Of a stretch of DNA of 64,000 bases, positions 3,849 through 47,306 are shown in pieces. The DNA is taken from assembly GCA_003971905.1 (NCBI GenBank), contig RSEE01000025.1, positions 496,001 through 560,000 of the forward strand, written 5' to 3'. Positions within the stretch are counted from its first letter, which is position 1. Each line of letters starts with the position of its first letter. Source of the DNA: Moniliella sp. 'wahieum'. Its lineage: Eukaryota; Basidiomycota; Moniliellomycetes; Moniliellales; Moniliellaceae. The notes beneath the pieces were generated by a model. The model was not told the origin of the DNA. It saw only the letters and a list, made by a program, of their open reading frames with translations, and searched no databases. The position numbers and the translations under genes are program-made.

Positions 3849-5175
3849 GGGTGGGTGGGGGTACGAGGCGGGAGAAGAACTGTGAAGAGAGAGGTGGAGG
3901 GAGGGGTGGGTGGAGGAGGAGGAGGAGGAGGAGGAGGACGAGGCAGCGCCGCGCCGACCAGCGAGAGCCGGGTGGGGCGCTGCTCCGGTTGCTGCCAGGG
4001 CAGCGTGCCTGCTGTCACGCATGGGGCACAGCGCCAGTGCCTGGCGGGATGGGGGCAGCTTGCAGCAGGAGGCACTGGCGCTGTGCGCGCCACTTGCCGC
4101 GCGCCACACAGTGTGGTGGTGCGGCATTGGTGCCCTGCACGACGTGTGACATGCGACGTGCCATGGGCATGACATGTGACATGTGACATGGGACATGCGC
4201 CTGGGGGGTGGATGCCACGTGTGATGCATGATGCATGATGGGGTGCGGATGTGCACGGCATGGCCAGCCCCATGACGCTGACAGCTGGGTGGCGCCGCGC
4301 GGGGGCCGCAGGGGGCCCCCTTGCATGCTGCCCGTGCGCAGCCAGAATGCCCCCCCCCAGCCACGCGTGACTACTGATACTGATACTGACAAGCGAGAGC
4401 GCGCCGCCAGGTGTCTAACTCATGCACCTTGCAAAACCCCTGGGACGCCCCCGCGCTGGCCCATTCGCTTACGTACAACCAAGCACGCCAGGGCACACCT
4501 CCTCAAACCCAACCTCAGGCCTAAGGGCCTCAAGCCTCAGGTGGCAAGCAAAACCTCTCACATCGTCAAGTCGATCACAGAAGCCCTCACGCCGCGATCA
4601 GCGCCAGCGCCAGCCCCCCGAAAGAGCAGGAGGCCAGCTATGATCGCTAGAGGATTGAGTCGCTAGAGGGATTGAGTACTGGTGAGCGCGGGGCGAAAGA
4701 GGTAGTGAGAGGAGGGATGATGGGAAGGAGCCAGAGAGAAGAAGACGAAGTTATCCCACTGGAGACTGTAGGTCTTTAGAAGGAGGCCTGTCAGTGGTGT
4801 GTTGCCAGCATTCCGCCAGGTGGAGATGGAATGCTGGAGGTACGAGGTTGGAAGACGAGGAGGCATTAGTGGAGACGAGATTATCACGAGAAGGAAACAG
4901 GTCGACAGACAGGTCACTAACAGTTGGATGTTCGCTTGAATTATCAGTGGCTATGCATATTACGGAAAATGCCGGTTAATCCCTGTCCTTTATCACTTCA
5001 AGGTCGTGAGCGAGGCTTCACGCGCTTCGCGCTTCGAAAGGCTGCTGTGAATAATATGGATTGATCCACAAGGAGTTGATCCTGGTGCAGTCGACAGGGA
5101 TACGGAAGCTCATGGAGCACATGCTTTGGGAGAAGCGGGGTAGTGATCGATCAAAGAGCCAACTGGGGTAGGCAA
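3849..5175. other. Intergenic region between chitin synthase and the Kin4-like kinase
   Basis: I see no supported gene. Upstream of the chitin synthase start there is a GGA/TCC-rich stretch (about 3893-3945) and two palindromic heptad arrays, TGA-CATG repeated at 4170-4190 and TGA-TGCA repeated at 4222-4240, placing them about 320-390 bp upstream of the ATG. The rest has no recognisable features. Confidence 0.6.
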
Positions 5176-5290
5176 GATAGGATGGATCGGATAGGATCGG
5201 ATAGGATAGGATAGGATAGGATAGGATAGGATAGGATAGGATAGGATAGGATATAGGATAGGTAGGATAGGATAGGAGGATAGGATAGGT
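5176..5290. repeat. GGATA pentanucleotide microsatellite
   Basis: About 20 imperfect tandem copies of a GGATA unit (with a few GGATC and GGTA variants) end only a few bases from the stop codon of the downstream-facing kinase gene (5296), so it lies in or next to that gene's 3' untranslated region. Confidence 0.9.
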
Positions 5291-5295
5291 TTGAT

Positions 5296-46123: not shown

Positions 46124-46595
46124 TCAAGTGCGCTCGCCACGGAGACGACGAGCCAGGGCAATGTCCTTGGGCTGGATCGTGACACGCTTGGCGTGAATGG
46201 CACAGAGATTGGTGTCTTCAAAAAGCGAGACGAGGTAGGCTTCAGCCGATTCTTGGAGAGCCATGACCGCAGACGACTGGAACCGCAAGTCTGTCTTCCA
46301 GTCCTGAGAGATCTCGCGGACAAGACGCTGGAAGGGCAGCTTGCGGATCAAGAGCTCGGTGCTCTTTTGGTACCGACGAATCTCACGGAGAGCAACCGTA
46401 CCAGGGCGGTAACGATGAGGTTTCTTGACACCGCCTGTCGAAGGGGCTGATTTGCGCGCGGCCTTAGTGGCAAGCTGTTTACGAGGTGCCTTGCCACCGG
46501 TGGACTTGCGGGCTTTTGCTTGGTTCGGGCCTACAGAAAAGGGTTGTCAGTACTCAGTATCAAAGAGATCAAAGAGACAATGCGCAGTAGACCAT
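46124..46595 (-). CDS. HHT1: Histone H3
   Basis: The second exon (46530-46124) encodes the mature protein from ARTKQ to RGERT. The start codon lies in a separate tiny exon: ATG 46595-46593 followed directly by GTCTAC, or ATG 46620 followed by GTGTGT; the acceptor CTGTAG is at 46536-46531. The exon is 407 nt where 408 is expected, and the missing base falls in the Thr6 codon (after ARTKQ), so the true product is surely intact. Differences from canonical H3 that do not depend on indels: EISQDWKTD for [17 protein letters not shown] for QEASEAYL, and a final Thr. K4, K9, K27 and K36 contexts are retained. TATA box near 46629-46623. Divergent from H4. Confidence 0.96.
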
Positions 46596-46620
46596 CGCAT
46601 ATTGGCGAGATACACACCAT

Positions 46621-47306
46621 GGTATATATCGGATGAGAGGGGCGAAAGGGGGGGAGAAGTGGTAAAGAAAGCGAGTTTCAAGGGGGTTACATTATACAGA
46701 AGGAGAAAGGAGAAGTTCACGCGTTCACATTCGCTCTCTCCACTGTTAGAATGGTGGGGGGTGACCGGTGACCGGTGACATGCGACCGGTGACATGCGAC
46801 GTGTGGCATGTGTCATGTGACATGTGACACGCGACACACCACTGGGCGTGGCTTGGTCGATCATCGATCAGAACGATCATCGATCATCTCAGATGCAGCG
46901 TGCATTTCAATCTGTGCAGCGGCAATCTGCTGCAACCCGCCCAGGGCGCAAGGCCAACCTGAAATGTTGGGGTGTGTCTCAGGCTTGCGTCAGCGGATTT
47001 TGTGAACGTGTGAACCTCCCGGGCAGAGGCAGTTCCCCCGGAACAACAACCTAGTGTTGCTGTCCACGTTCACAAGCTGGGACGCTAGTGGCTGAGACAT
47101 CCACTACTGTGAGATGTGATCGATGATCAAAGGACCGCCACACGATTCGAATATATATAGGCTGGACGGTGCGTTGTCTTCTGGGCTGTTCCCTCCATCC
47201 GTTTCTCTCGTCTTTCTCTCTCTCTCAACAAGTACGTTTCTCTCGTTACCGGTTACCTCCTCCGTCCCTCCCCTACACCGACTGACCAACTCTCCCCCTT
47301 GCAGCA
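46621..47306. promoter_or_regulatory. Divergent H3-H4 promoter region with heptad arrays and H4 leader intron
   Basis: TATA motifs lie at 46623-46629 (towards H3) and 47151-47159 (towards H4). Between them are heptad arrays: TGA-CCGG and TGA-CATG units at 46762-46800, CATG-TGA units at 46812-46835 and TCGA-TCA units at 46857-46887. The H4 leader contains an intron at 47232-47304 (GTACGT..TTGCAG) ending two bases before the ATG. Start-proximal introns are common in this window. Confidence 0.75.

Follow-up and report, generated by a model that had tools for sequence, protein, structure and literature searches.

We have analyzed a 64,000-bp stretch of genomic DNA (C25:496001-560000, the window hereafter), part of an assembly of 69.49 Mb in 223 contigs, for short arrays in which the triplet TNA (N being any base) alternates with a palindromic tetramer. 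A unit is defined as TNA plus a palindromic tetramer, the tetramer is called the core, and a chain is at least two consecutive units. The genes of the window are of fungal type by Pfam and include a chitin synthase with its N-terminal domain (PF08407), malate synthase, cobalamin-independent methionine synthase, a CoA transferase and Snf7. The chitin synthase N-terminal domain is what we take to mark the genome as fungal in affinity. An Rfam scan of five sources returned one tRNA. Wider counts were made on a 264-kb sample consisting of the window and 20 stretches of 10 kb, one from each of contigs C1-C20, picked by place and blind; the sample is about 0.4% of the genome and its stretches are not a random sample.

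The units follow one local rule. With X' denoting the complement of X, a site ab-TNA-XY becomes ab-TNA-XY·Y'X'-TNA-XY in the right-copied (R) form and ab-TNA-b'a'·ab-TNA-XY in the left-copied (L) form, with 7 bp gained either way. The core reads as the mirror of the neighbouring dinucleotide, that of the right flank in R and that of the left flank in L. The original prediction for this DNA held that the arrays share a rule and not a sequence, and this is borne out, since the core follows the neighbouring dinucleotide. A single product of this kind is called a scar, and a single scar obeying the R or L grammar is a flank-rule hit.

Arrays in the window

Arrays are present at the places that had been noted, among them 4170, 13856 (with a single unit also at 13843) and 24789. 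They occupy the noted range of 4169..46887, but one further chain lies outside it, at 60099. None of the features described here is assigned to a strand. The leftmost is an isolated R-type scar, TGA-GATC-TGA followed by GA, at 342..351. The chain scan gives the array (TGACATG)3 at 4170..4190, and an R-type array with the same core, TGATGCATGATGCATGA followed by TG, stands at 4222..4238. At 13843..13876 a unit TGA-CTAG-TGA precedes an array with the cores GTAC, GTAC and CGCG.

Several arrays change their core. The one at 24789..24819 reads TGA-AGCT-TCA-AGCT-TGA-AGCT-TGA-CATG-TGA between CT on the left and CA on the right; its first cores mirror the left flank and its last core mirrors the right flank. 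Close to it are a compound, decayed array of TTA units with the cores CCGG, CTAG, CTGG and CCTAG (25003..25116), an array with the cores CGCG, CGCG and ACGT and the left flank CG (25250..25270), and the switching array TCA-TCGA-TCA-ACGT-TAA between GA and AC (25394..25410). Two others of this kind are TCA-CCGG-TCA-TGCA-TCA between GG and TG (28707..28723) and TAA-CTAG-TAA-AGCT-TAA between AG and AG (36364..36380), and at 46762..46782 the cores CCGG, CCGG and CATG follow the left flank GG.

Arrays with one core include (TGATCGA)3TGA followed by TC (28585..28608), the L-type array TTAGATCTTAGATCTTA with the left flank TC (29830..29846), a TCGA-core array with mixed TTA and TCA spacers (36691..36714), a pair of TCGA cores with the flanks GA and TC (37052..37068) and (TCACGCG)3 at 38151..38171. 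A scar TGA-TCGA-TGA lies between GA and TC at 39118..39127, and two scars in which TCA-TCGA-TCA follows GA (46861..46886) are the last in the noted range. The spacers originally listed, TGA, TCA and TTA, are all seen, but the list was incomplete, as TAA also occurs. The same holds for the cores: those listed do occur, but all 16 palindromic tetramers are found between TNA triplets. AT-only cores are few, and TATA is at chance level (1 observed, 0.8 expected).

Abundance of the units

The window contains 23 chains. A comparison with dinucleotide-shuffled DNA had been proposed, and the observed chains lie far above the shuffles. Two units in a row were counted 34 times in the window, where 60 local dinucleotide shuffles average 0.5 (standard deviation 0.7, maximum 3), and three in a row 11 times against 0. 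In the 264-kb sample two units in a row occur 82 times, compared with 1.47 in 15 shuffles. The 15 other combinations of flanking bases gave 0-17 in the same sample against 1.9-7.7 in shuffles, with some mild excess. The control arrangements ANT (0 versus 2.0), CNG (6 versus 6.3) and GNC (3 versus 6.4) show no excess, so palindromy alone is insufficient and the T and A flanks are required. Double units of the CNA (17 versus 3.7) and GNT (14 versus 3.5) arrangements are mildly above shuffles; the CNA cases are perhaps minisatellites.

The 264-kb sample holds 193 flank-rule hits. By simple proportion this would extrapolate to some 50,000 hits genome-wide, with several hits per array. In E. coli K-12, two stretches totalling 100 kb gave one hit, a rough yardstick as they are mostly coding. 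Counted over the whole genome, TNAACGTTNAAC, which represents one dinucleotide class, occurs 6,618 times and the reversed control pattern 174 times; the 21-mer made of three TGATCGA units occurs 90 + 87 times and its reversed control 3 + 0 times. The excess is real and genome-wide.

Exact 7-bp tandem duplications of any kind number 162, against 21 in one shuffle. The form 'palindromic hexamer plus one base' accounts for 76 of the 162 (2 of the 21 in the shuffle), and in 73 of these 76 the hexamer has the form A....T. Plain 7-bp target duplications were considered as a source of the pattern and rejected, as at TNA they are not above controls. The general surplus of 7-bp duplications, together with the existence of arrays with identical cores, is what ordinary slippage of a heptanucleotide microsatellite would give. 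Against slippage, most cases are single: 137 single-core cases with equal N outnumber the 33 two-core and 9 longer chains of the 264-kb sample, and the single cases already follow the mirror rule.

Copying of the flanks

Classified by the grammar, the hits of the 264-kb sample comprise 75 R-only, 67 L-only and 51 that satisfy both forms; 20 shuffles gave 0.1, 0.6 and 0.1. The controls ANT, CNG, GNC, TNT and ANA yield 0-4 per class. Since R and L are reverse complements of one rule, their near-equal numbers are uninformative alone. The arrays had been described as close to self-complementary, which is true of the core. Of 271 palindromic cores between TNA triplets, however, 223 have the same N on both sides, which makes TNA a direct repeat and leaves only the core inverted. 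With TNC as the control, ambiguous 7-bp repeats number 47, and 0.5 in shuffles (R 1, L 2); they are perhaps minisatellites.

Isolated cases with equal N number 136. Half of the core recurs immediately outside the scar in exactly one flank in 94 of them (right 50, left 44); in 15 both flanks carry it and in 27 neither does. Two other readings were rejected on these grounds. A TNA duplication with an arbitrary palindromic insert would not explain why the half-core recurs in the flank, and a 7-bp duplication of pre-existing palindromic sites does not fit with typically just one matching flank.

The same class emerges from a scan for direct repeats of 4-12 bp separated by gaps of 0-8 bp. Repeats of 5 bp with a mirrored 2-bp gap (52 and 56 in the two orientations of the mirror) exceed shuffles (10.5 and 12.5), and TNA stands at the repeat end far from the gap in 30 of the 52 and 29 of the 56. 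The 6+1 class is also above shuffles (44 and 43 versus 10.7 and 10.2), with TNA rare there; this is about a quarter of the 148 repeats in the class, as expected from one-base chance complementarity. Only the 4-bp length of mirrored core is enriched at TNA, cores of 2, 6 and 8 bp numbering 20, 1 and 2 against 18, 0 and 0.

Base preferences were tabulated for 141 cases. A purine is favoured before T on the uncopied side (chi-squared 20) and a pyrimidine weakly favoured after A on the copied side (chi-squared 5.4), which would suit a two-fold symmetric site and a dimeric enzyme. Stems of A and T only are under-used (8 versus about 25 expected), while GC-only stems (CC, CG, GC, GG) are not favoured (40 versus 43 expected). 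Beside an intact right TNA the left copy has a base other than T in 45 cases, compared with 19 for the right copy (shuffles 5.1 and 4.1), and the left A is likewise lost more often (31 versus 19). The non-T excess hints at a mirror tract of 3 instead of 2 bases, a variant we did not adopt, given the similar loss of the left A and a possible share of decay in old scars.

A TNA target recalls the PIF/Harbinger elements, and the scars could be thought of as 3-bp duplications of a TNA target, filled in between with a 4-bp palindrome; in the available part of one account, mPing tolerates any middle base in duplications of this type (PMC4561436). A 3-bp duplication cannot, however, explain a filler that mirrors the flank beyond TNA. 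As far as that account extends, mPing has a 3-bp duplication and mostly precise excision, where the scars here have 7 bp with a flank-templated filler, and for mPing with matching duplications, retention of both copies was not observed (PMC4561436). The PIF/Harbinger transposase DDE_Tnp_4 (PF13359) has 0 matches in the genome in a search whose control was positive in 1 of 14 genomes. We consider this origin very unlikely.

Core switching

Arrays with the same core would result from repeated events at one site, and a change of core within an array from left-copying and right-copying events at one site. Repeated hits would then require the outermost cores to mirror the two flanks. Among 15 switching chains, 12 begin with a core that mirrors the left flank and 14 end with one that mirrors the right flank; with the flanks swapped the figures are 0 and 1. 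The two-core chains with equal N comprise 8 LL, 8 RR, 6 LR, 3 in which both flanks match and 4 in which at least one core matches neither flank, and those with mixed N comprise 2 LR, 1 matching both flanks and 1 matching neither. The forbidden order RL is found in none of the 33 two-core chains.

Units are thus not copied from the neighbouring unit only, as slippage would have it, the flanks governing switching in 12 and 14 of the 15 chains. A switch is seen in 6 of the 22 interpretable two-core chains with equal N, and a second event at a random TNA and in a random direction would give LR in one quarter, so slippage is unnecessary here. Slippage also leaves the origin of the unit unexplained, and we regard it as a highly improbable source of the pattern, one that could still lengthen some arrays. 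Of the meanings first offered for the arrays, template-independent slippage came nearest in proposing a mutational process, but the process is templated by the adjacent dinucleotide and is not simple slippage: the core mirrors that dinucleotide, events add 7 bp, and the order of cores in an array tracks the two flanks.

Second events are in surplus. From 137 single scars and 10,421 TNA sites about 4 two-core chains would be expected by our own arithmetic, which assumes independence, and 33 are observed; either certain sites or regions are hit preferentially, or part of the surplus comes from slippage. Hits in the window cluster at 24-26, 28-30, 36-40 and 46-48 kb.

Filled and empty copies

Direct comparison of filled and empty sites is possible in a repeat family. 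At TC-TGA-TG exactly 7 bp distinguish one copy (L009) from its relative (L021), and with the insert the site reads TGA-GATC-TGA. The family alignment contains 32 copies (the reference plus 31 of 42 match rows), and a copy was accepted as an empty partner if it matched the sequence minus 7 bp with at most 3 mismatches in 21 bases. At seven sites a copy is filled according to the rule, while 20, 26, 5, 21, 15, 19 and 20 of the 31 other copies are empty. The other filled copies are L060 (shared with L050) and L052, which have no empty partner, and L064, which has one; the scars of L052 and L064 are at TNA triplets already counted. These alignments show a 7-bp addition in the R or L form.

Scars at four sites are common to two or three copies of the family, and are therefore inherited and not sequencing errors. 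Among insertions longer than 3 bp in the family, 7 bp is the most frequent length (9 positions versus 1-6 at the other sizes seen). At the site GAG-TCA-GC some copies bear a left-copied scar and L052 a right-copied one, with three further base differences there, which suggests that single sites can be hit repeatedly.

An LTR-like repeat of about 860 bp, family A (L018:413-1281 and L029-L048, with at least 41 matches), has several copies about 2.4 kb apart in the same orientation (on C8, C42 and C123), which suggests short elements with long terminal repeats. In 21 copies of this family no rule hit was found inside the element and three in the flanking DNA; the family is perhaps too young or its copies too few to have acquired scars.

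Absence from coding sequence

The original prediction had noticed no arrays in coding exons, and where this could be examined it stands. Coding-supported sequence consists of nine stretches of the window based on open reading frames, 9,604 bp in all, of which seven contain a frame with a Pfam hit above the cut-off. In the remaining two, 18920-19783 has a Pfam hit below the cut-off and 1031-1759 was joined by eye to the chitin synthase. The stretches 30427-31910 and 50968-53201 were extended by eye across neighbouring frames. The coding-supported set as a whole may include introns and miss exons. This sequence holds 342 of the 2,590 TNA sites of the window and none of its 62 flank-rule hits (p=0.0002). 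Absence of scars from coding stretches is expected for frameshifting insertions under selection. A chain at 15157 does sit in an open reading frame, by eye a decayed reverse transcriptase (no Pfam hit), and it disobeys the flank rule.

The absence from the coding stretches, and the clustering in the window noted above, might also be expected if the arrays were maintained by selection as sites for dimeric DNA-binding proteins. Nearly all cores serve, however, and which core is present can be predicted from whatever dinucleotide happens to adjoin the site; copies of a dispersed repeat contain scars as well, and the absence of scars from coding sequence needs no more than frameshifting. Selection of this kind is hardly credible, and the binding sites, methylation targets or spacers that had been suggested appear unnecessary to explain the pattern.

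Origin of the scars

Each unit is best explained, with a probability of roughly 0.5, as the scar of one 7-bp insertion event at TNA in which a staggered break was sealed by hairpins and reopened. A dimeric enzyme would act on 7 bp with TNA in the middle. Cuts staggered by 7 bases at abTNAXY would duplicate 7 bp, leaving both flanks ending in abTNAXY, and both broken ends would be sealed as hairpins. Each hairpin would be reopened 2 (or 3) bases 3' of its tip, as in the formation of P-nucleotides; because TNA is self-complementary outside N, nicking at 3 bases yields the same product. The opened ends would carry 4-base overhangs, XYY'X' on one and b'a'ab on the other. Joining of these in register would leave a mismatched tetramer, later resolved to either parent by repair or replication, for a net gain of 7. 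The simplest source of such breaks would be a cut-and-paste element that makes 7-bp target duplications and, on excision, leaves its flanks as hairpins; equally possible is a resident recombinase that works without any element. The stronger proposal that a resident, undescribed recombinase or nuclease, other than a conventional transposon, hits TNA genome-wide and leaves hairpin-derived, flank-templated 7-bp insertions is tentative, and we place it somewhat below an even chance. If true, the genome would contain tens of thousands of scars (by extrapolation), and the activity would be, now or in the past, a main source of its small non-coding insertions.

Several observations weigh against a hairpin-sealed break. 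Mirror products of zero and one base at TNA are at control level (12 and 2 versus 13-84 and 2-9), so ordinary end joining would need an added precision step. Cores of mixed parentage, a possible remnant of the heteroduplex, number 37 compared with 35 in the ANT control, and mosaic cores arising by partial heteroduplex repair were rejected on this basis. In the 264-kb sample 14 pairs of terminal inverted repeats with NNTNANN were found (13 on recounting), just 2 of them away from arrays, which is fewer than for CNG (7) and GNC (6). Of 52 inverted pairs 45 were listed, and not one of these has a 7-bp duplication. With arrays subtracted, CA..TG termini show no excess (16 of 3,316 versus 13 of 3,023 for ANT). 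The sample contains no convincing resident element with terminal inverted repeats, shared termini or 7-bp duplications of the same kind. The one long insertion looked at in the aligned repeat family (family B), about 210 bp interrupting the copy L080 (C73:262760-263160), has by eye a 6-bp duplication that is not TNA and is of another kind than the scars. The Ac/Ds scars with which comparison is natural are heterogeneous, with 28 types among 128 in C. albicans in the available text (PMC5873905).

None of the seven transposase or recombinase families searched for was found. PF13359, PF10551, PF13358 and PF00589 have 0 matches in the genome, in a search that could miss intron-split genes. PF05699 (2 candidates scored, none passed), PF18758 and PF03184 likewise have 0, with the control genomes silent too. 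The same search found 71 matches to the reverse-transcriptase family, so it works on this genome, which is seemingly poor in DNA transposons of known kinds.

These null searches are consistent with a replication error, which needs no enzyme or element. A nascent strand ending in abTNA would switch template at the near-palindromic TNA and copy back b'a'; the 7-base mini-hairpin abTNAb'a' would loop out and synthesis resume, with 7 bp inserted. The grammar allows the same product in this way, as TNA is self-complementary apart from N, and the scarcity of AT-only stems given above is as weak stems would behave. The fixed stem length is not accounted for, since no enrichment is seen for cores of 2, 6 or 8 bp, nor is the restriction to T..A, as the equally self-complementary ANT, CNG and GNC give next to nothing; GC-only stems, moreover, are not favoured. 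We therefore think a template switch unlikely.

Comparison with known systems

The reopened-hairpin reading has its closest parallels in hAT excision and in V(D)J recombination. Scars of Ac/Ds in plants and yeasts contain flank-derived palindromes that the parts of the literature available ascribe to hairpins (PMC5873905). In the footprints from plants, S. cerevisiae and C. albicans these palindromes are attributed to hairpins reopened off the tip (PMC5873905, PMC4561436), and flank-templated palindromic filler is found here as well. Unlike these footprints, in which, as far as those sources go, palindrome length and trimming vary, there is here one predominant product, 7 bp with a mirrored dinucleotide and a TNA centre. 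Heterogeneous P-nucleotide lengths were not seen: among mirrored cores of 2-8 bp 4 alone is enriched, trimmed products not having been searched for. The hAT dimerisation domain (PF05699) is without a match, as given above, its controls being silent.

At human T-cell receptor joints two bases are the dominant Artemis opening distance and the dominant P-nucleotide length, according to the accessible part of one study (PMC3528771). The coding joints made by RAG and Artemis are alike in their mirror nucleotides and in two as the dominant length (PMC3528771), and unlike in that the scars, as defined here, show no sign of trimming or added bases, carry a 7-bp duplication and occur in a fungus-like genome. 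Fungal hAT7 and Kyakuja elements make 7-bp target duplications (PMC12730594); the portion of that account available mentions neither a TNA preference nor scars. No convincing resident copies of these elements were found in the 264 kb, and the KDZ transposase (PF18758) has 0 matches, its control being silent. By analogy, the scars would work like hAT excision products and V(D)J coding ends with their P-nucleotides; membership in either system is not claimed. Among the papers searched, judged largely by title and the start of the abstract, none evidently describes the pattern.

One local rule accounts for a pattern that resembles coded binding sites, a warning that palindromy and even spacing in an array can come from mutation alone. 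The scars form a readable record of breaking and rejoining, most showing both the position of the break and the flank that was copied. If an enzyme makes them, this genome would provide a natural setting for hairpin-ended breaks other than those of immune receptors and known transposons.

Other repeats

Two repeats of other kinds were seen. A foldback at L016:4339-5069, with arms of about 310 bp that are 98.7% alike, resembles window positions 16319-16603, the end of a region that looks like a decayed reverse-transcriptase element. An imperfect (GGATA)n pentanucleotide array of about 23 copies lies at 5176-5289 of the window and is unlike the 7-bp scars.

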